From NCBI GenBank assembly GCA_947570625.1, contig CANOUP010000018.1:1-41893 (forward strand): a stretch of DNA of 41,893 nucleotides, read 5' to 3'. Under the pieces are notes generated by a model. The model was not told where the DNA came from and made no database searches. It worked only from the letters and a program-made list of their open reading frames with translations. The position numbers and the translations under genes were made by a program. Source of the stretch: an uncultured Clostridia bacterium. Lineage in GTDB: Bacteria > Bacillota > Clostridia > Christensenellales > Borkfalkiaceae. Below are positions 5,035 to 40,247 of this stretch, one piece after another. How positions within the stretch are numbered: position 1 is the stretch's first letter; each line of letters begins with the position of its first letter.

Positions 5035-6126
5035 TTATTTTAAAGTTTTATAGGCAAGAAACAAAGCAAGATTTATCGCCGTCTTCGTAACGGCTTCCCT
5101 TCCGCCTTTTAAATTGTATTCGTAAACGTTAATTCCGTTTGCCGTTCCGACAGCTATATATACCAGCCCTACGGGCTTTGACGTATTGTCGGAAGCAGGT
5201 CCAGCTATACCCGTCGTTGCAATGCTTATATCGCAGTTTCCGTCCTCCAAAAGCCCCTTAGCCATCTCGACCGCGGTTTCCGCAGATACCGCGCCAAACT
5301 GGTGAAGCGTACAGTCGTTGACTTTCAGTCTGCTCATTTTGGATTCGTTGGAATAGGTATTTAAACCTTCGAAGTATACACTGCTTATTCCCGGAACTTC
5401 AACAAGCTTCATCCCTACTCCTCCGCCCGTAAACGATTCGGCAACGCTTATTTTCATTCTGCGCAGTTTGAGAAGATGAAAAAGTCTTTCGGCAAGAGTA
5501 ACGTTGTCCATCGCGTAAAGATATTCGCTTAACTCTCCGACTAGTATCCTCATAATCTTATCGCGGTCGGTTGAAACGATTTTATCCGAACAAGTAACCT
5601 CGATTGAACAATCGCCGAAAATATCGTTTACTATTATGTCTGCGTCGCTAAACTGACTTTTAACTTTTGCTATCGCTTCGTTTACCTCTTTTACAGGCGC
5701 GCAGACGGTTTTTATATAGGACTTTATATAACTTACTCCGTAACGCTCGTCGAGCAAACTTTTAATATTTTCAACCGACAATTTATTTGCCCTGTCACAG
5801 TACATTACGAAAACTTTCGAATCGTCGGTTTTGAGTATGTCCGTTCCGCCAAAATCACTGTTATAAAGATTGGAAACAAAGTCCTTTACTGCTCTCTCCA
5901 TTCCTGCGGGGCATATTATAAGCACGTTTTCGTAATTTGCTTTTGCGTCCTTTATTGCACGCACAATTTCGTCCGATTCGTCGAAAGCAATATAAGAAAC
6001 CCTGTCAAAGTAATAACCCGCCGAGGAAAAATCATCTATGATTTTTCCTGCATAGGCAAAATTGTTTATTTTCCTGTTTCTCAATACAAGCAGGCAGTTT
6101 CTCGCGTTCCTATGTTCTGCGCTCAT
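5035..6126 (-). CDS. cinA: CinA-like protein with a diverged N-terminal domain
   Basis: The C-terminal half (about residues 205-363) is a good CinA/NMN amidohydrolase-type domain: [43 protein letters not shown] and TTGIAGPAS. In known CinA proteins this domain deamidates nicotinamide mononucleotide. The N-terminal half sits where a MoaB/CinA nucleotide-binding domain should be, but I cannot find the usual GGLGPT-type motif, and the whole is 363 rather than about 410 residues. The N-terminus is thus shortened or degenerate and probably lacks the ADP-ribose pyrophosphatase activity seen in some CinA proteins. The start overlaps the pgsA stop (ATGA), and recA follows by 14 bases. Confidence 0.85.
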
Positions 6127-6761
6127 TGTTTCAGTACCGCTATGTTTTTGACAAGATAATTTATGCCCGAAATAACCGTCAGAACAATAGAAACTGCAAA
6201 AAAACCGAGTCCTATATAATTTATAACCGTGCCGGCGATATTATCGGTAAGCTCGCGAACTCCTTCGCCCAACAATAAAACTACGATACAGATATCCTGT
6301 GTAAACGTTTTGATTTTTCCGAATATATCCGCGGCTATAACAAATTTAGATTCGGCGGCAACCATACGGATACCGCTGACGGCAAGCTCCCTTATAATAA
6401 TGACGGCGACTCCGCACCCAGCCGTAATCAAAGCCCATTCTCCCAGCGATTGCGTAAAAATATACGGCACGGTAAGAAATACTACCAACGCAGACAAAAC
6501 AAGCGCCTTGTCCGCGATAGGGTCGAGAAACTTACCCAGATTAGTAACCAGATTATACTTGCGCGCAATCTTGCCGTCGAGAAAGTCCGTAAAGCTTGCT
6601 ATACCGAAAACAGCAAGCGCAACGAGATAATGCCCCGTAAAATTCAAATAAAAAAACAGAATAAACACGGGAATCATAATAATTCTGCTGAACGTCAGAA
6701 TATTCGGCAAATTCATTATTCTGCCTTTGACCTGCTTGTCCTCGTTCTGCTCTTCAATCAT
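6123..6761 (-). CDS. pgsA: CDP-diacylglycerol-glycerol-3-phosphate 3-phosphatidyltransferase
   Basis: Integral membrane enzyme making phosphatidylglycerol phosphate, the committed step to phosphatidylglycerol and cardiolipin. The CDP-alcohol phosphotransferase signature DGxxARx8Gx3Dx3D is complete (DGKIAR ... GKFLDPIADK). Several hydrophobic helices follow, and the length (212 residues) is normal for the family. The first 12 or so residues are charged (MIEEQNEDKQ) and extend slightly before the usual MNLPNILTFSR start. GGAGG before the ATG at 6761 supports the longer form. It overlaps rimO upstream and cinA downstream by 4 bases each, so the three are translationally coupled. Confidence 0.94.
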   Translation of the reverse strand: MIEEQNEDKQVKGRIMNLPNILTFSRIIMIPVFILFFYLNFTGHYLVALAVFGIASFTDFLDGKIARKYNLVTNLGKFLDPIADKALVLSALVVFLTVPYIFTQSLGEWALITAGCGVAVIIIRELAVSGIRMVAAESKFVIAADIFGKIKTFTQDICIVVLLLGEGVRELTDNIAGTVINYIGLGFFAVSIVLTVISGINYLVKNIAVLKQ

Positions 6762-8092
6762 ATCTGAAAATCCTCCGTTTTGCCGTACAAATCGTAATCG
6801 CCGTACTCCGTAATATAAACGTCGTAATACTCGCCCTGAACTGCATTTGCAGAATTGAAGTATACCTTACCGTCAATCTCAGGCGCGCTGAAATATGCTC
6901 TGCCTTCAAAACAATTTTTATCGTAATTGATTCCGTCGCATATTACGCGGACTTTTTTGCCTATAAAACGTGAAAGTTTATCGGAGCAAATTCCGCGCTG
7001 GACAGCATAAAGCTTTTTAACCCTTTCGCGCTTTACAGCGTACGGAATTTGTCCCTTTAATTTTGCAGAAGGAGTATCGGGCTCTTTCGAATATGCAAAA
7101 AATCCGCAGTTATCCAGCCTTGCTTCCTCCAAAAACGAACACAGACCTTCGAAATCCTCTTGCGTTTCGGAAGGAAAGCCCGCTATAAATGTCGAACGTA
7201 TTGCGATATCGGGAATATTTTTCCTTAGCTTTTTAAAAAGTTCGAGATACTCGCGCCTGCTCCCTTTCCTGTTCATTAATTTCAATATCCTGTCTTCGCT
7301 GTGTTGTAAAGGTATATCGAGATACTTTATAATTTTTTTGTTGTCCCTTATTTCGGCGATAAGTTCGTCGTCAATCATATCGGGATAACAGTATAATAAT
7401 CTTACACTATTAATGTTGACAAGAGCTGTCAGGTTTTGTAAAATTTTTATTAATTTTTTTTGTCCGTATAAATCTATGCCGTAATGGGTAACGTCCTGCG
7501 CGACAAGAATAAGCTCGGAAACCTCTCCTAAGTTTTCGGCTTCTTCAACTAATTTTTCGATTGGATAACTTACGTAATCACCACGGATTTTAGGAATAAG
7601 ACAATAGGTACAGCGGTTATTACAGCCGTCCGCGATTTTAAGGTAAGCATAATGTTGGGGAGTCGTCACAGTCCTTGACGTAACATATTCTCCGTTCCCA
7701 GCCCCGACATAATCTACCCTGCCGCCTTTATAGGCGCATTCCAGCGCTTCGAAAATTTTATCGTAGTCGTTTATGCCGAGGAATACGTCTGCTTCCGTCA
7801 GTCCGCCGAACAGTTCGCCGATATACTTTTGCGGAAGGCACCCGCTGACAACAAGTTTTTCGAGATTAGCGTTTTTATACTCGGCGCATTCAATAGCCGT
7901 TTCGATAGCTTCTTTCCTTGACTCGTTCAAAAATGCGCAAGTATTTACTATTATTATCTGCGCCTCGTTGATATTGTCTGAAATTTCACAACCCCTGCTC
8001 TTTATTATTGACAAAAGTTTTTCGGAATCAACCCTGTTTTTATCGCACCCGAGCGAAATAACGCCGAATTTCTTTTTTGTAAAATCAATCAT
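6758..8092 (-). CDS. rimO: Ribosomal protein S12 methylthiotransferase RimO
   Basis: Radical SAM enzyme that adds a methylthio group to the conserved Asp of ribosomal protein S12. The N-terminal UPF0004 domain carries three cluster cysteines (SLGCDKN, VNTCAFL, VSGCLPQ). The radical SAM core has CNNRCTYCLIP, and a TRAM-like C-terminal domain ends the 444-residue protein. The SLGCDKNRVDSE opening and YGIDLYG segment favour RimO over MiaB. The ATG at 8092 lies inside the end of ftsK, with its ribosome site (GGGGAA) in the ftsK coding sequence. It overlaps pgsA downstream by 4 bases. Confidence 0.96.
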   Translation of the reverse strand: MIDFTKKKFGVISLGCDKNRVDSEKLLSIIKSRGCEISDNINEAQIIIVNTCAFLNESRKEAIETAIECAEYKNANLEKLVVSGCLPQKYIGELFGGLTEADVFLGINDYDKIFEALECAYKGGRVDYVGAGNGEYVTSRTVTTPQHYAYLKIADGCNNRCTYCLIPKIRGDYVSYPIEKLVEEAENLGEVSELILVAQDVTHYGIDLYGQKKLIKILQNLTALVNINSVRLLYCYPDMIDDELIAEIRDNKKIIKYLDIPLQHSEDRILKLMNRKGSRREYLELFKKLRKNIPDIAIRSTFIAGFPSETQEDFEGLCSFLEEARLDNCGFFAYSKEPDTPSAKLKGQIPYAVKRERVKKLYAVQRGICSDKLSRFIGKKVRVICDGINYDKNCFEGRAYFSAPEIDGKVYFNSANAVQGEYYDVYITEYGDYDLYGKTEDFQI

Positions 8093-28106: not shown

Positions 28107-29246
28107 TTAATTTTCGGTCATTATTTCTTTAATGGAAATTTTACGCATTTTTAATAAACACAACGCCATAATCGCTTCGTATAATACGACGAATACGGCT
28201 AAGACCGCAAAAAACGCTCCTACATTGAAACCGTATTCGGGAATAACACCAACATCTTTATAAAATAATTTTATTACAAGACTCAGCAGAACATATTGAT
28301 ATACCGTACCGACGGCAAACCCCGCAAACGCAAAAATGTGATATACCGCAAACACCGACATAAAACATTCTTTAATCGAATATCCGAAAGTTTTCATAAT
28401 TGAAATATTTTTAACATTTGCATTTATCAGCGACGTTATCGCCATAAAAAGCGTTGTAAAAGCGAGCACTGCTCCTATCGCAAAAATTATTACCGCCATG
28501 ACGGTGGGTGCAAGTTCAGCCATAGAAACCGCCATCTGAACCATCGCCGCAACACAGAAGCCAGCAAAGGCTATCAAGAAAGCAATCGCCTTTTTAACGG
28601 AAACATTTTTAAAAAACATTTCTTTTACAAACGTTCTGTCCTTTTCCGCCTTGCCTTGCTTAACCCTTTTAACAATTTCCGTCTTGTCGCGTAGCATTTC
28701 AAGCACGGGACGCCTTAAACTGTAAGCGCCGTACAGCCAGGACAGTAAAGAAAATACTGCCGTCGGCAATAAAATCAAAAAGAAGACCAAAGATGCGTGA
28801 AACGTAATTTTTATTTCCGGCAATCCCTCAATGGTTAACCCCTCGTACACCGTCGGCATTACCATAAACCCCGCACCGAAGCCGATAACCGTTCCCGCAA
28901 GAACGCTCAAACCGAACACGAGAAATCCCGATGCTATCCTTATATTAGAATAGCCCATAGCTTTTAAAATACCAAGCCGACATTTATGATTGTCTATATA
29001 AAGCCTGATATAGAAAAAAATCATAATCACCGCAATCAGCGAAAGAATACCGCCTGCCAATACACTGCACAACTTTGCAGACGCCATCTGAGCGTTGTAT
29101 ATAGCCGTCGTTTCCTCTGTTATCAAATCTTTTATCGAACCTGCGTCGATAATGAAATTAATAAAAAAAGTACAAACGAACACGGCGCAAAACGTAAGAA
29201 CCGCTACACCGATAAGTTTAAAACCGTCTTTAACGCTGATAACCAT
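28107..29246 (-). CDS. FtsX-family ABC transporter permease
   Basis: Membrane half of a MacB/LolCDE-type (type VII) ABC system. At 379 residues it has about eight hydrophobic helices in two FtsX-like halves. The first half has GGILSLIAVIMIFFYIRLYI, then LGILKAMGYSN. The second has AVLAFTTLFMAITSLI, then ISIMKTFGYSIKE. These KAMGYS/KTFGYS loops are the typical cytoplasmic coupling region. No large extracellular domain is present, so it is a compact form. The start is 2 bases after the ATPase stop, with AGGGTGG overlapping that stop. The substrate is unknown; drug, peptide or lipid export would all fit TetR control. Confidence 0.85.
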   Translation of the reverse strand: MVISVKDGFKLIGVAVLTFCAVFVCTFFINFIIDAGSIKDLITEETTAIYNAQMASAKLCSVLAGGILSLIAVIMIFFYIRLYIDNHKCRLGILKAMGYSNIRIASGFLVFGLSVLAGTVIGFGAGFMVMPTVYEGLTIEGLPEIKITFHASLVFFLILLPTAVFSLLSWLYGAYSLRRPVLEMLRDKTEIVKRVKQGKAEKDRTFVKEMFFKNVSVKKAIAFLIAFAGFCVAAMVQMAVSMAELAPTVMAVIIFAIGAVLAFTTLFMAITSLINANVKNISIMKTFGYSIKECFMSVFAVYHIFAFAGFAVGTVYQYVLLSLVIKLFYKDVGVIPEYGFNVGAFFAVLAVFVVLYEAIMALCLLKMRKISIKEIMTEN

Positions 29247-29247
29247 G

Positions 29248-29946
29248 TTACCACCCTATCGCATAAGCCGATTTAGGCGAAGCGTTTTCGCTGTAATTTA
29301 CAATGGTACCGCTATTCATATTGATTACTTTATCCGACATATCCGCAATATTAAGGTTATGCGTTACCATTATCATAGTGAACTTCTTTTCTGTGTGAAG
29401 TTTCGAAATATAGTCGAGTACGTTTCTGCCTGTTTTTTCGTCAAGCGCCCCCGTAGGTTCGTCGAGAAACAGTACATGCGGATTTTTAGCCAGCGCCCTT
29501 GCAATACTTACGCGCTGTTGTTCTCCGCCAGAAAGCTCGTAAGGCTTGCTCTTCAATTTATCCGAAAGCCCGACCTCTTCTATGATTTTGCGATAATCGC
29601 CATTGCTCGAAAGGTCCGCCCCCATTCTTACATTTTTATCAACGCTGAGATGCGGAAGCAAATAATATTGCTGAAAAACGAAACCGACCTCCCTTCTTCT
29701 GAAATCCGTCAATTGTTTTTCGGTCATAGACGTTATTTCACTGTTCCCGAACATAATTTTACCGCTGTCGGCACGTTCCAAACCAGATAAAACGCTCATA
29801 AGAGTAGATTTACCCGAACCCGAAGCACCTGTTATAACGACGAATTCTCCGTCGTTTACCGCAAGCGAAATTCCGTTAAGAACATTGACCGTTCCGTTTT
29901 TATAAGATTTATATAAATTTTCGGCAATAATCATTTTAACCCTCAC
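29248..29946 (-). CDS. ABC transporter ATP-binding protein (LolD/MacB type)
   Basis: Cytoplasmic ATPase driving the adjacent permease. It has Walker [11 protein letters not shown]-loop [12 protein letters not shown], signature [15 protein letters not shown], Walker [14 protein letters not shown] and the switch His in VTHNL. At 232 residues it is typical of LolD-like subunits. The ALDEKTG continuation after Walker B is usual in FtsX-partner ATPases. The start overlaps the TetR gene by 11 bases. An alternative Met two codons in ([14 protein letters not shown]) is possible. Confidence 0.95.
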
Positions 29947-30508
29947 TTAAACTTTTTTTAAGCAAACCGACAAAAACCGAAGTAAGCATATCAGAAATTT
30001 CGCTTTCCGAAAATGTGCACATTTCTGTAGCAAGCAACACAGCAATACCGTGAGAATATATCCACATATGCGTATACAGCTTCATTGCCTTCTCCTTCGG
30101 CAGTGAATACCCCTTTTCTATCGATCCGAGAATAATATTTTTATTATGGTCTATCGAATCTATCACATTATTTATGCCGTAAACTTTATCACGTTCGCGC
30201 ATAAACAAAAGCCTGAAAAGTTTAGGCTGTTCCAAGGCAAAACGGATATAGGCTTTACCTACGCCTTTAAAAGCTAACTCCTCTTTCAGTCCCTCGGCAA
30301 TATATCCGTCGTATATTTTTTCCGCGGAAGACACAACCTCTTTCTGAACATCGTCCATACTTTCAAAGACGGTGAAGATAGGACGGGCAGAACTTCCGAG
30401 CCGTTCCCCGAGCGCGCGCGCCGTCAGAGCGTCGGGTCCCTTTTCAATTACAATATTCAGCGCTGTATCGATTATTTCCCTTCTGCTGAACTTAGGTTTG
30501 GGGGGCAT
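29936..30508 (-). CDS. TetR/AcrR-family transcriptional repressor
   Basis: 190-residue one-component regulator. The N-terminal helix-turn-helix is recognisable: SRREIIDTALNIVIEKGPDALTARALGERLG, read as SRREIIDTALNIV then ALTARALGERLG. The C-terminal ligand domain has a TetR_C-like pattern (FALEQPKLFRLLFMRE). AAAGGAG precedes the ATG at 30508. It is first in an operon with the ABC exporter genes, and a palindrome at 30527-30552 between promoter and start is the probable operator. It likely represses itself and the exporter until an unknown ligand binds. Confidence 0.92.
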   Translation of the reverse strand: MPPKPKFSRREIIDTALNIVIEKGPDALTARALGERLGSSARPIFTVFESMDDVQKEVVSSAEKIYDGYIAEGLKEELAFKGVGKAYIRFALEQPKLFRLLFMRERDKVYGINNVIDSIDHNKNIILGSIEKGYSLPKEKAMKLYTHMWIYSHGIAVLLATEMCTFSESEISDMLTSVFVGLLKKSLSEG

Positions 30509-36406: not shown

Positions 36407-36781
36407 TCAATCTATTATTTTTAGTATATTTTTTTCCACCAATGTAACGGGATAGCGTGTCATACCTTGCTTAACGCCATTTTTACCAAATATTTTTTCT
36501 ATCGTACCTTTATTTCTCACAGTCATTCCTTGTATAACTTTTCCATCGGCACTTTTCCTTCTTATGATAATGCAGTTTTCTTCATATTCTTCAAGAAACT
36601 TAACGGCGACTACTACTTTTCCGTTTTCTTGTGCTGTTAATAATTGAGCAAATTTAAAATTTCCCGTGTCCTCAACCAATTTGCACGCTTCTGCGTTAAA
36701 ATCGAGTTGTCCTCTGCCTATGCTAACAAATGCTGATGAGCGTCCGTCTGCTTGTTTGATTTTTACAATCTGCCATTCCAT
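36407..36781 (-). CDS. Hypothetical protein in the island
   Basis: 124 residues opening MEWQIVKIKQADGRSSAF. I do not recognise a family. It is soluble, mixed alpha/beta in appearance, with no signal peptide or membrane helix. Basic and acidic residues are balanced, and a glycine-rich middle (KIFGKNGVKQGM) is seen. The gene looks real: AGGAG precedes the ATG, and a perfect promoter (36817-36845) faces it. It stands alone between tRNA-Ser and the GC-rich hairpin element. AT content is above that of the core genes, which suits acquired DNA. A role in mobility or in the peptide system 0.8 kb away is possible but unsupported. Confidence 0.7.
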   Translation of the reverse strand: MEWQIVKIKQADGRSSAFVSIGRGQLDFNAEACKLVEDTGNFKFAQLLTAQENGKVVVAVKFLEEYEENCIIIRRKSADGKVIQGMTVRNKGTIEKIFGKNGVKQGMTRYPVTLVEKNILKIID

Positions 36782-36845: not shown

Positions 36846-37045
36846 TAACATTTCTATAAATTCTTATAATAATTTTAATAATTTTAATGATAATTTCAAT
36901 AAATGCGTATAAATTATGTTAATACATCCTACAAATCAATCAATTATAGCACCTATTCGACAAATAAGATAAAAAATTTGTTTTATATTCGTGATAAAAT
37001 CATTGTACAGTTTTATATTCTTTTTCGTAAAAGTTAAATTGTTTT
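36846..37045. other. AT-rich spacer, nothing recognised
   Basis: Very AT-rich sequence between the 124-residue gene's promoter and the GC-rich hairpin segment. I find no frame with a ribosome site, no clear promoter facing the hairpins, and no repeat. Confidence 0.5.
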
Positions 37046-37071
37046 ATTGTTCGCTTGTGCTTACCGTCTGG

Positions 37072-37244
37072 GAACGGAATACGCCGCCGAGCGCGGTAAA
37101 GGGCGTTTCGCCAAGCGGTTTAGCGGCGAACACCCTTTCCGCTCGCGTTCAAATTGCTTTTTTTAGTTGATTTCTTTCAGTTTAGGCGTGAGCTTGCCGC
37201 GGCGGCGAAGCCGCCGCGCTTGTCAAGACAAGCTCACGCCTAAA
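37072..37244. repeat. GC-rich nested hairpins: candidate structured RNA or mobile hairpin
   Basis: Two structures. The first (37072-37150) nests four short helices in register: GAACG/CGTTC, GAGCG/CGCTC, AAAGGG/CCCTTT and TTCGCC/GGCGAA, closing on a 12-base loop. A T7 run follows at 37158-37164 on the plus strand. The second (37181-37244) has 16-base perfect outer arms (TTTAGGCGTGAGCTTG and its complement). Between them lie a 9-base GC hairpin with a GAA loop (CGCGGCGGC/GCCGCCGCG) and a small CTTGTC/GACAAG palindrome. Base composition is strikingly unlike the AT-rich flanks. I could not assign a known RNA family, strand or promoter. Confidence 0.55.
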
Positions 37245-37269
37245 TGCCAAATCAAATTCCCTTAAAATA

Positions 37270-37298
37270 TTGACAACCTATGTATTTCATGCTATAAT
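37270..37298 (+). promoter_or_regulatory. Perfect extended consensus promoter of the small peptide gene
   Basis: TTGACA (37270-37275) and TATAAT (37293-37298) are 17 bases apart, with an extended TGC before the -10. It is 31 bases before the ATG at 37330 and should be very strong. Confidence 0.88.
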
Positions 37299-37329
37299 GT
37301 ATAAAATTTTGTATGAGGAGATATGTAAT

Positions 37330-37503
37330 ATGAGTAATAATTATGAATTTGGTCCAGAAGATGAATATACAAGTTTAAAAAGTGAAACGCCATATGGCTA
37401 TAATTCTGGTTCTTCTATATATGGTAGCACATATGGCACTCCCACAAGCGGAGATGATGATGGATATGAACCAGATTCTTCGCCTGAATATGAGGCGGAA
37501 TGA
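37330..37503 (+). CDS. Small Tyr/Gly/Ser-rich acidic protein, unknown
   Basis: 57 residues opening MSNNYEFGPEDEYTSL and ending PDSSPEYEAE. The middle is low complexity with repeated Tyr-Gly/Ser-Tyr steps (PYGYNSGSSIYGSTYGTP), and the C-terminus is strongly acidic (SGDDDGYEPD). There is no Cys, no membrane helix and no signal peptide. AGGAG lies 9 bases before the ATG at 37330; the longer in-frame opening at 37270 starts inside the promoter and is rejected. It converges on the PqqD/radical SAM operon and shares its terminator. It may be a second substrate of that enzyme, a secreted or surface peptide, or unrelated. I recognise no family. Confidence 0.7.
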   Translation: MSNNYEFGPEDEYTSLKSETPYGYNSGSSIYGSTYGTPTSGDDDGYEPDSSPEYEAE

Positions 37504-37531
37504 ATCGAATTTAATCCCAAGTTGTGTTAAT

Positions 37532-37561
37532 AAAAAAGCGACAGTTAACTGTCGCTTTTTT
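37532..37561. terminator. Shared bidirectional terminator of the small peptide genes
   Basis: A 15-base perfect inverted repeat (AAAAAAGCGACAGTT and its complement) meets with no loop bases, so the actual hairpin has a shorter stem. It lies 28 bases after the plus-strand peptide gene and 7 after the minus-strand precursor stop. Confidence 0.85.
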
Positions 37562-37568
37562 AATTGTG

Positions 37569-37652
37569 TTATTGCCCATTGCATGTGCCTTGTTTGCAAC
37601 CGCTCATTTTTACTACTTTTACAGGCAATAAAATTGGTTTCTGATAATTCAT
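37569..37652 (-). CDS. Putative RiPP precursor peptide (27 residues, Cys-x4-Cys)
   Basis: Too short for routine gene calling. The ATG (37650-37652) directly abuts the TAA of the radical SAM gene, and a perfect AAAGGAGGT site sits in the last codons of that gene, so the two are coupled. The peptide opens MNYQKPILLPVKVV and ends KMSGCKQGTCNGQ. The first part would be a leader for the PqqD-like protein; the last part a core with Cys19 and Cys24 among Gly, Ser, Thr, Asn and Gln. That layout suits a thioether (sactipeptide- or ranthipeptide-like) crosslink, but the chemistry is not proven. The terminator begins 7 bases after the stop. I recognise no named precursor family. Confidence 0.78.
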   Translation of the reverse strand: MNYQKPILLPVKVVKMSGCKQGTCNGQ

Positions 37653-38669
37653 TTAGCTACCTCCTTTGAATTTTTCTATTGCAATCTTCTTCGCAGAAGA
37701 AGAGCAACCATATAAATTATTATCTTCAAGTAACGCCATCCCTGGACAACGCAAACAAACACCTTTCAATTTACATGTTGTACAAGCTGAAATCGGTTCA
37801 ACGCTTTTTTTCCGCCAAAGATTTAACTCTACTGAATTTGTCCAGATATTTGTTAGATTGCCTTCAAGAATATTTCCTACTTTCAACATTAAGGAGTTGC
37901 AAGGCCAAACATCACCGTCATAATTTATGCATATATTGCTGAATCCCGCACTACAAGGAATACCTTCTTTGTTTGTCGATAAACTTATCGAACGATAATT
38001 ATTAAGTATTTCTTCAATTTCCATTGTAATATCGTGCAATCCATCTCTAATTTGTAGTTCGTGCGGAGAATCATCGCCGTCAGCTTTTGTAAAGATAGTC
38101 GTTGTTGTCATGAAATTAAAATTATTCTCACGTGCAAATGCTTCCACTTGTTTATATGCATATTTATTAAGTTCCATCAAAGGAGTTTTGATTGTAACGG
38201 AAATATCGTATTTTTTTAACAAAAGAATATTTTTATAAATTTGCTCAAAAGAACCTTTCGTTCGTGTTATCATATCATGTATTTTAGGGTCCATTGAAAA
38301 TACAGTAGTGGAAAACTCAGCTATCCCTAATTGACTTAATCTTTTAATTTTCGTTTCATTTAAAGAATAAGCATTGCTCATTAAAAATACTCGTAAAAAT
38401 TGGTTGCGTGCAAACTCTATTAATTCAAACAAATCCTTCCTCAATAGAATTTCTCCACCCGTAAATGTTATATTTAAAGCACCTAACGACCGAGCTTCTA
38501 ATATCGTATCTTTTATTTTTTGAGTCGGTAAGCCATATGAATTATGATTAGGTATATAGCAATGAATGCAATTTTGGTCACAGCCATTTAATAATACAAA
38601 CATCACATTAAAAAGCCGCTGATTTTTTTTGCACTTCTCAGAAAGTTCATTTAAATCCACGCTTATCAT
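37653..38669 (-). CDS. Radical SAM/SPASM peptide-modifying enzyme
   Basis: 338 residues. The radical SAM cluster motif CDQNCIHCY uses C30, C34 and C37, followed by the glycine-rich SAM contact TFTGGEILLR. The C-terminal SPASM domain has C239, C257, then the C-x2-C-x5-C-x2-C set at C296, C299, C305 and C308, and a last C322, enough for two auxiliary iron-sulfur clusters. INYDGDVWPCNSL and VGNILEGNLTNIW are usual SPASM connecting segments. Enzymes of this build install thioether, carbon-carbon or other crosslinks in peptides. It overlaps the PqqD-like gene by 4 bases (ATGA) and is followed with no gap by the precursor. Confidence 0.92.
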   Translation of the reverse strand: MISVDLNELSEKCKKNQRLFNVMFVLLNGCDQNCIHCYIPNHNSYGLPTQKIKDTILEARSLGALNITFTGGEILLRKDLFELIEFARNQFLRVFLMSNAYSLNETKIKRLSQLGIAEFSTTVFSMDPKIHDMITRTKGSFEQIYKNILLLKKYDISVTIKTPLMELNKYAYKQVEAFARENNFNFMTTTTIFTKADGDDSPHELQIRDGLHDITMEIEEILNNYRSISLSTNKEGIPCSAGFSNICINYDGDVWPCNSLMLKVGNILEGNLTNIWTNSVELNLWRKKSVEPISACTTCKLKGVCLRCPGMALLEDNNLYGCSSSAKKIAIEKFKGGS

Positions 38670-38941
38670 AATTCATCCTCCACCGTATGTAACAAATCGT
38701 TATGAATCAAATCAACCATGAATTCATTAAAATCACTTTTGACTTGTTCAAAAGAAATAGTTGAAAAATTTTTAGACAACATATAACATATCTCATCAAA
38801 GTCATTTGATTTACTAATCAATAACCAAAATTCCTTTGCTAAATCATTAAGAATAAATGCCTCATGTGATATTTCATTAAAAATGTGAACTGTACCAAAA
38901 AATTCTTGCCATGCAATATTTTTAGAATATGTAATCTTCAT
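38666..38941 (-). CDS. PqqD-like RiPP recognition element protein
   Basis: 91 residues with the PqqD-type winged helix pattern: a beta-rich start (HIFNEISHEAFILNDLAKEF) read as a FNEISHEAFILND core, then WLLISKSNDFDEICYMLSK and a C-terminal helix pair ending LIHNDLLHTVEDEL. Such proteins bind the precursor leader and present it to the radical SAM enzyme. AGAGGTAG precedes the ATG at 38941, and it is the first gene of the operon. There is no Cys cluster or catalytic motif, as expected. No protease or exporter is adjacent. Confidence 0.85.
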   Translation of the reverse strand: MKITYSKNIAWQEFFGTVHIFNEISHEAFILNDLAKEFWLLISKSNDFDEICYMLSKNFSTISFEQVKSDFNEFMVDLIHNDLLHTVEDEL

Positions 38942-38957
38942 TTTCTACCTCTATATT

Positions 38958-38986
38958 ATATTAACACAATTATAAAACTCTGTCAA
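38958..38986 (-). promoter_or_regulatory. Promoter of the PqqD/radical SAM/precursor operon
   Basis: On the minus strand a perfect TTGACA (38981-38986) and TAATAT (38958-38963) are 17 bases apart, ending 16 bases before the ATG, which leaves a short leader holding the ribosome site. Confidence 0.65.
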
Positions 38987-39056
38987 TCGTCATTATTCGG
39001 TGCTTTGCAACATGACTAATAGTAATAAAAGTTGCTTGTTAACTTGCCCTATAAAA

Positions 39057-39090
39057 AAACCTAAGTTAAACTAGTGTTCAACTTAGGTTT
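39057..39090. terminator. Hairpin terminator at the island end
   Basis: AAACCTAAGTT (39057-39067) pairs perfectly with AACTTAGGTTT (39080-39090) across a 12-base loop, with an A-run on the left and T-rich sequence on the right. No plus-strand gene ends just before it. Confidence 0.6.
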
Positions 39091-39105
39091 CTCTTGGCGC
39101 GCCAA

Positions 39106-39135
39106 AAAACGGGCAGGATTTTTCCTGCCCGTTTT
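39106..39135 (+). terminator. Orphan terminator, probably the original tRNA-Ser terminator
   Basis: AAAACGGGCAGGA and TCCTGCCCGTTTT form a 13-base stem with a T4 loop. It directly follows GCGCCAAAA (39099-39107), the same bases that end tRNA-Ser. tRNA-Arg in this window has its terminator in the same position relative to CCA, so I infer that an insertion separated it from tRNA-Ser. Confidence 0.6.
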
Positions 39136-39324
39136 GTTGTTGATTAACTAAAAGGATCCAAACCGAACGATCGGATGCGCGGTATCGTTTTTAGATATAG
39201 CGTAATGTAAGTCAAGTTTTTTGTTCGACTACGTCTTTACCTGCGTAGCAGAAAACAACGCAATGTAAACAACTGCGTTGTTTTTAATTTATAAATTAAT
39301 TTAATTAAAATACCGTATGTTTTG
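39136..39324. other. Intergenic stretch before degV
   Basis: No frame with a ribosome site is seen. It holds a hairpin AAAACAACGCA/TGCGTTGTTTT (39252-39284) followed by TTTAATTT on the plus strand, and a weaker ACGAT/ATCGT pair. Both are terminator-like without an upstream gene, so the segment may be remnant sequence or a short untranslated transcript. Confidence 0.45.
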
Positions 39325-39353
39325 TTGACTAATCAAGTGATTGTTAGTATAAT
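39325..39353 (+). promoter_or_regulatory. Promoter of degV
   Basis: TTGACT (39325-39330) and a perfect TATAAT (39348-39353) are 17 bases apart, 21 bases before the ATG. Confidence 0.75.
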
Positions 39354-39374
39354 TATGAACCAAGGAGTTGAATT

Positions 39375-40247
39375 ATGAAAACTGCAATAGTAACAGACAG
39401 CAACAGTGGAATAACGCAAGCTTTGGCAAGCGAACTCGGAATATCCGTTGTACCCATGCCCGTACTTATTGACGGGGAAATTTATTTTGAAGATCTCACC
39501 ATTTCGCAGGAACAGTTCTATGAAAAGCTGAAAAGCGACGCACAGGTTTCCACCTCTCAGCCTAATCCTATTGATGTAGGCGATATATGGGACAAAGTTC
39601 TTCAATCTTATGACGAATTAGTTTATATTCCTATGTCTAGCGGGCTTTCAGAAACCTGCCATACTCTTCAACATTACGCAGAAACCGAAGAACGCTTTAA
39701 AAATAAAGTATACGTCGTAGATAATCAGAGAATATCCATTACACAGCGCCAAAGCGTTTTGGACGGTCTTAAAATGGCGCAGGAAGGCAAATCTGCAAAA
39801 GAAATTGCCGAGTGGCTGATAAACACGAAAATGAAATCAAGCATCTACATTATGGTAGGTACTCTTAAATATCTGAAAAAAGGCGGACGGCTTACGCCTG
39901 CCGTTGCGGCAATAGGCACCCTTCTCAAAATTAAGCCCGTTCTCCAAATTCAGGGCTTCAAGCTTGACCAGTACGCAAAAGTCAGAAAGCTTAACGATGC
40001 CAAAACTACAATGATTAACGCTATTAAGAAAGATATTGCGACAAGGTTTAAAGATGAAACCGCTCAGGGCAAAATGACCATAGCGGTTGCTCATACCGAA
40101 AATTTAGAAGAAGCGGAAAAGTTTAAAAGCGAACTTCAAGAAGCTTTTCCCGATATTGAATTTACATACGTCGACCCCCTTTCTCTCAGCGTTTCCTGCC
40201 ATATAGGTCCCGGCGCTCTTGCTTGCGCCTGCACTATTAAATACTAA
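39375..40247 (+). CDS. DegV-family fatty-acid-binding protein
   Basis: 290 residues of the DegV/FakB fold. FakB proteins present fatty acids to the kinase FakA for use in phospholipids. The N-terminus has IVTDSNSGI, a typical DegV opening, then STSQPNPIDV, the lipid head contact region, and IPMSSGLSETCHT. The middle has MVGTLKYLKKGGRLTPAVAAIGTLL, read as GTLKYLKKGGRLTPA, and the end HIGPGALACACT. CAAGGAG precedes the ATG. It has its own promoter and terminator. No fakA is in the window, so the fatty acid preference is unknown. Confidence 0.95.
   Translation: MKTAIVTDSNSGITQALASELGISVVPMPVLIDGEIYFEDLTISQEQFYEKLKSDAQVSTSQPNPIDVGDIWDKVLQSYDELVYIPMSSGLSETCHTLQHYAETEERFKNKVYVVDNQRISITQRQSVLDGLKMAQEGKSAKEIAEWLINTKMKSSIYIMVGTLKYLKKGGRLTPAVAAIGTLLKIKPVLQIQGFKLDQYAKVRKLNDAKTTMINAIKKDIATRFKDETAQGKMTIAVAHTENLEEAEKFKSELQEAFPDIEFTYVDPLSLSVSCHIGPGALACACTIKY

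Follow-up and report, generated by a model that had tools for sequence, protein, structure and literature searches.

We think it quite probable that three minus-strand genes in the window (the entire stretch of DNA that was analysed, 41,893 nucleotides from an uncultured Clostridia bacterium) form a minimal KIS-like RaS-RiPP operon, in which a radical SAM/SPASM enzyme would link Cys19 and/or Cys24 of a 27-residue peptide by thioethers. Judged from sequence, the precursor is KIS-like, the enzyme is SSH-like and the operon, at 1.4 kb, is smaller than both of those systems. The two-cysteine core of the peptide and the seven cysteines in the SPASM region of the enzyme were counted in favor of this explanation.

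Gene order and encoded proteins

The features of the operon and its flanks are listed here in the direction of reading.

38958-38986, minus strand: promoter-like site TTGACA-17-TAATAT with TG ahead of the second hexamer (consensus match only)
38666-38941, minus strand: pqqD, encoding a discrete PqqD-family RRE of 91 aa
37653-38669, minus strand: radical SAM/SPASM peptide maturase gene, 338 aa
38559-38582, minus strand: CxxxCxxC radical SAM cluster motif (C30, C34, C37), from the 12-enzyme alignment
37704-37955, minus strand: SPASM-region cysteines C239, C257, C296, C299, C305, C308, and C322, from the 12-enzyme alignment
37659-37667, minus strand: Shine-Dalgarno site AAAGGAGGT within the 3' end of the enzyme gene
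37569-37652, minus strand: 27-codon precursor gene, KIS-like (match to NF050044)
37629-37646, minus strand: leader motif Y-Q-K-P-I-L (residues 3 to 8), which fits YxxPx[L/V/I/F/A]
37572-37598, minus strand: core CKQGTCNGQ, common to the KIS remnant CSQGTCNGQ
37531-37562, minus strand: intrinsic terminator, palindromic (fold compared with shuffles)

The three abutting frames described in the initial annotation were found in place: the enzyme gene overlaps pqqD by four bases (ATGA, 38666 to 38669), and its TAA abuts the ATG of the 27-codon frame, whose start is coupled to the enzyme gene. The nine-base ribosome site claimed for this frame also held up, since AAAGGAGGT-N6-ATG occurs a single time in the 41,893-base window, ahead of the 27-codon frame, and in 0 of 100 shuffles. 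The terminator reported just after the stop codon has a stem that begins at the 7th base beyond it and folds at -18.3 kcal/mol, whereas shuffles average -2.97 (z, -8.66; 0 of 200 as good). The promoter-like site lies 16 bases upstream of the pqqD ATG; such matches are common by chance, with 12 found in positions 37000 to 39400 against 10.4 expected. Because a promoter-like site precedes pqqD and a terminator closes the stretch, it may be interpreted as a single short transcription unit with the putative order promoter, RRE, maturase, precursor, terminator.

Both larger genes encode what had been predicted for them, with Pfam scores above gathering. The PqqD protein matches PF05402 (E, 3.4e-6; 27.7 bits versus a gathering score of 23.4) and is 16 to 31% identical to the products of genes in the same place at five related loci. 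The enzyme matches Radical_SAM (PF04055; E, 2.5e-22) and SPASM (PF13186; E, 2.8e-10). Among 12 aligned enzymes, C30, C34, and C37 are invariant, as are C296, C299, and C305, while C239, C257, and C308 are nearly so and the position of C322 is less conserved. The solved structure nearest to the enzyme by sequence is that of the sactipeptide maturase SkfB (PDB 6efn; E, 7.7e-15 over residues 24 to 278), which is described as a thioether maturase (PMC8326336). SkfB is nevertheless a distant relative, with a chain of 412 aa and a substrate other than the window peptide.

The precursor peptide, MNYQKPILLPVKVVKMSGCKQGTCNGQ, begins with M-N-Y-Q-K-P-I-L and ends in CNGQ, with K-M-S at residues 15 to 17 as a possible equivalent of the motif from which KIS takes its name. 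Four residues separate Cys19 from Cys24, in agreement with the C-x4-C that had been described at the peptide end. When the window peptide was shuffled 200,000 times, 0.7% of the products had a [YF]xxPx[ILVM] motif within their first 14 residues. Discrete lasso-peptide RREs are described as recognizing [Y/W]xxPx[L/V/I/F/A], and YxxP is described as required for efficient RRE binding in the LPP family (PMC13381572). The window operon resembles these systems in combining a YxxPx[L/V/I/F/A] leader with a discrete RRE (PMC13381572); it differs in its modifying enzyme, and its leader binding is a prediction.

Genes adjoining the operon are degV (39375 to 40247) and two small genes with no Pfam match. 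As the initial annotation had remarked, neither a protease nor an exporter is among the adjacent genes, and neither is an Rgg-type regulator. The nearest transport genes found lie at 28107 to 30508, about 7.6 kb from the operon, where a TetR-type regulator is followed by an ABC ATPase and a permease of the FtsX type. Convergent with the operon is a plus-strand gene for a 57-aa protein (37330 to 37503; MSNNYEFGPEDEY...PEYEAE) that is acidic and rich in Tyr, Gly, and Ser. It has a GAGGAG ribosome site and a perfect TTGACA-17-TATAAT promoter (37270 to 37298), one of 4 such sites in the window against 0.03 expected; it has no Pfam match, and of 41 genomes searched its own alone contained it. The operon terminator could serve this gene too. 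The intergenic stretch at 37077 to 37253 looks, from its sequence, like a dispersed element: it holds a GC-rich inverted repeat and recurs in other genomes of the genus, at 91% over about 177 bases in one and as shorter or weaker copies in others.

Relationship to KIS and SSH systems

Searched against NCBIfam at E up to 10, the peptide had a sole match, to NF050044, "KIS family RaS-RiPP peptide" (E, 1.2e-4; 21.6 bits). Residues 3 to 27 fall on positions 9 to 33 of the 55-position model, so that 25 of the 27 residues are aligned. Because this score is under the curated cut-off of 70 bits, we do not file the window operon as a KIS member. A six-frame scan of the genome with the model gave E 3.1e-6 and 27.9 bits with read-through (two TAA codons inside), the top score over 291 genomes of the class, of which six had any match and the next best reached 20.1 bits. 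Five other loci, at 17 to 20 bits, were rejected because their matches lie in or across longer frames. A Streptococcus match of 20.8 bits, inside a longer frame, was rejected as chance-like; with such a match at this size, 21.6 bits is not decisive by itself.

The core provides a second line of comparison. We searched overlapping sets of 147, 147, and 284 genomes from the genus Streptococcus and found no KIS match above the cut-off in the 284. Each set yielded the same genome, G796, whose match of 52.1 bits, also under 70, is a broken remnant with an in-frame stop. The remnant is flanked by an rRNA adenine dimethylase gene on one side and an ABC exporter on the other (5946 to 7715 of its locus). 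CKQGTCNGQ in the window and CSQGTCNGQ in the remnant share 8 of 9 residues and 22 of 27 bases. Four codons differ, three of them synonymously. In controls, the best agreement was 16 of 27 bases for 2,000 random stretches of the G796 locus minus the true place and 19 of 27 for 117 other loci, from which own-genome copies and remnant loci had been left out. After the shared core the remnant continues SHNTCSAEVE..., whereas the window frame stops at CNGQ; the codons that follow are TAA CAC AAT in the window and TCT CAC AAT in the remnant. The shared CAC AAT hints at an originally longer window gene.

These matches go against the earlier statement that the core fits no known family, and what had been proposed as a new RiPP system reads instead as a variant of the KIS kind. 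KIS is given as a streptococcal RaS-RiPP subfamily, for Streptococcus suis (PMC13361665). The likeness lies in the alignment of the peptide to the KIS model and in the CxQGTCNGQ core shared with the Streptococcus-genus remnant, itself a broken locus. The differences are a 27-residue precursor that lacks the C-terminal tail, a score below the cut-off, a host outside Streptococcus, and an operon with a single enzyme and no adjoining Rgg-type regulator or exporter. We met no nonstreptococcal KIS system in the literature searched, a search outside which the likely source papers lie.

The enzyme points to a different relative, SSH, which is also a streptococcal RaS-RiPP subfamily. Used alone against genome contigs it gave 49 pattern matches, none confirmed, while a three-sequence enzyme alignment gave at least 501 confirmed relatives; the top 80 of these were retained. 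Its best relatives among the matches listed are the first enzymes of three SSH clusters (34 to 36% identical), on Macrococcoides bohemicum plasmid NZ_CP079985.1 and at two Streptococcus loci (L014 and L016), of Streptococcus pseudopneumoniae and S. rubneri. These clusters have the order PqqD-rSAM-precursor-rSAM-ABC, and the SSH model NF050043 (cut-off, 45) gives 86.4, 94.6, and 95.0 bits for the precursors they encode. In a 28-row tree with a midpoint root, the window enzyme forms a clade (97/95) with nine SSH-like enzymes, namely, the pair from each of these three SSH clusters, the pair from locus L019, and that of locus L015; these nine group at 97/96 without the window enzyme. The window operon shares with SSH a discrete PqqD, a related SPASM enzyme, a precursor that follows the enzyme, and a [YF]xKP leader. 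In contrast, the second rSAM and ABC exporter seen at L010, L014, and L016 do not adjoin the window operon, and SSH precursors have 40 to 41 residues, one Cys, and a CSGxSSH core, compared with 27 residues and two Cys in the window. The window peptide had no match to NF050043 at E up to 10.

We inspected 14 loci for short genes, 13 from the best 80 plus the Macrococcoides locus, with short frames shown above a ribosome-site score threshold. The expectation that a short frame would lie beside related enzymes was borne out at nine, where a [YF]xxP leader is encoded by a short gene near the rSAM (L010, L014, and L016 to L022, with L014 and L016 near-copies of each other), and not at the other five (L015 and L023 to L026), where the filter used yielded no such gene. 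L015, a Clostridium locus with PqqD, rSAM, an exporter, and a truncated second rSAM, had no recognizable precursor on further reading.

Three of the nine loci are described here. In a Christensenellaceae MAG (L021, 3064 to 3514), the near-duplicate precursors MKKTYKKPAVIAAGKYSANMSTCGKQVNNVNSVCGH and MEKKAYKKPAVIAKGNYSAVMSTCGSQVSHVNSNCGH lie ahead of a large rSAM, and in a Bacillota MAG (L017, 5029 to 5151), a 40-residue peptide with an FxKP leader and CGC and CG motifs is directly 3' of an rSAM; none of these peptides had an NCBIfam match. A Candidatus Omnitrophota MAG (L018, 4998 to 6684) has three short YxxP peptides 3' of an rSAM.

Distribution and origin

A convincing KIS-like match was found in 1 of 93 genomes of the genus, the window's own, in a set in which, as in the enzyme searches below, many genomes are incomplete drafts. 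Eight others of the 93 had matches to the KIS model, at 14 to 17 bits, and five loci from four of these genomes (L113, L115, L118, L119, and L121) held no precursor-like gene. The enzyme was found, besides in its own genome, in one of 61 relatives at E 1e-30 (G001, 27% identical; 2 of 61 in all), in one genome of the class at E 1e-38 (G1150, 30%; 2 of 391), and in none of the phylum at E 1e-35 (1 of 398). The G1150 enzyme locus had no clear precursor.

The G001 enzyme, from the same genus, was rejected as a member of this operon type; in the 28-row tree it falls on another branch, with Gastranaerophilales. Its locus (L109, 6942 to 9344, beside a degV gene) encodes a 33-residue peptide, MLKITKVVGQSVANMSGCGKFTDNQCGIRAKNG, a 301-aa protein with no Pfam match, and a 468-aa rSAM/SPASM protein whose N-terminal extension has no Pfam match. 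The peptide also has MSGC...C, which we take as parallel to the window peptide.

Mobile elements were covered as well. The enzyme matched nine plasmid records (25 to 36%) and three phage records. Plasmid records H1, H2, and H9 and phage record H12 were examined, and H2, H9, and H12 had no visible KIS-like gene, with short frames listed for H12 alone. Viral contigs gave nothing with the enzyme alone as query and three weak matches with the enzyme alignment. The core, used as a DNA pattern on viral contigs, had one match, which spans larger frames and was judged chance. The window peptide had no match on plasmids or phages at E up to 10.

The GC content of the operon is 31%, compared with 43% for the window. 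Third-position GC is 23 to 27% in the two large operon genes and 40 to 54% in four other window genes measured; a 124-codon neighbor (36407 to 36781) is also low, at 36%. This low GC suggests that the operon was gained laterally from a low-GC donor.

Proposed mechanism and alternatives

We postulate that the discrete PqqD protein, acting as an RRE, would bind YQKPIL at residues 3 to 8 of the precursor and deliver its C-terminal half to the radical SAM/SPASM maturase. With SAM, the maturase would use 5'-deoxyadenosyl radical chemistry, together with auxiliary Fe-S clusters, to make a carbon radical on the core and to crosslink K-M-S-G-C-K-Q-G-T-C-N-G-Q. Most likely, Cys19 and Cys24 would form one or two thioethers with carbons of nearby residues; each Cys has possible acceptors at a distance of one to three residues on its N-terminal side. 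The ring may be closed by a Cys held near an auxiliary cluster, as proposed for SPASM thioether maturases (PMC8326336). Sactipeptide chemistry (Cys thioether to an alpha carbon) or ranthipeptide chemistry (to a beta or gamma carbon) is plausible. Trimming and export may depend on proteins encoded elsewhere in the genome, or may have been lost, and we speculate that the product would serve as an interbacterial antimicrobial or a signal.

The operon might instead make a RiPP by a modification other than a Cys thioether, such as a C-C or C-O crosslink, epimerization, or other Cys chemistry, a reading to which we give some chance, though a minor one. Radical SAM RiPP enzymes do several such reactions (PMC8326336; PMC13361665), and a 2026 review gives the function of KIS and SSH as not characterized in its table and includes neither in its figure of known structures (PMC13361665). 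The single Cys of SSH precursors, against two in the window precursor, also counts against our preferred explanation. Both core cysteines are retained in the KIS remnant, however, and the nearest solved relative, SkfB, is a thioether maturase (PMC8326336). Quite unlikely, in our estimate, is a complete and self-sufficient KIS-like pathway, made up of the tail-less precursor, its own RRE, and a single SPASM enzyme, that either moved from or predates the streptococcal version and carries on its CxQGTC core an undescribed crosslink. For instance, Gln21 or Thr23 might be joined to Cys24, or Met/Lys to Cys within KMSGC.

Other readings bear on whether the precursor is made and exported. We regard as unlikely a decaying lateral import, in which a stop codon has shortened the precursor, the exporter is gone, and no product leaves the cell. 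The KIS match rises from 21.6 bits for the peptide to 27.9 when read past the stop, but these scores come from different programs; CAC AAT follows the stop as in the remnant, but six matched bases may be chance. The lack of an adjoining exporter, the convincing match in a single genome of the genus, and the low GC also fit decay, while the intact PqqD and enzyme genes, the nine-base ribosome site on the short frame, and the terminator immediately after it do not. It is very improbable, we think, that the frame is untranslated and the enzyme acts on another substrate. No close homologue of the 27-codon frame suited to a codon-level test was found, the KIS score of the peptide is below the cut-off, and L015 is a clear relative without a visible precursor; set against these are the unique ribosome site with its coupled start, a leader motif that is rare in shuffles, the core match to KIS, and a matching gene position in related clusters. 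That the frame encodes a RiPP precursor is very probable, given the ribosome site, the RRE-type leader motif, the short genes at related loci, and the KIS-model match, which together back the RiPP operon first proposed.

If the kinship of this minimal KIS-like operon is true, the KIS kind would be carried beyond Streptococcus, and the short precursor would reveal parts that are possibly dispensable, such as the C-terminal tail. A three-gene version of 1.4 kb with so short a precursor may offer a handy experimental way into KIS/SSH chemistry.
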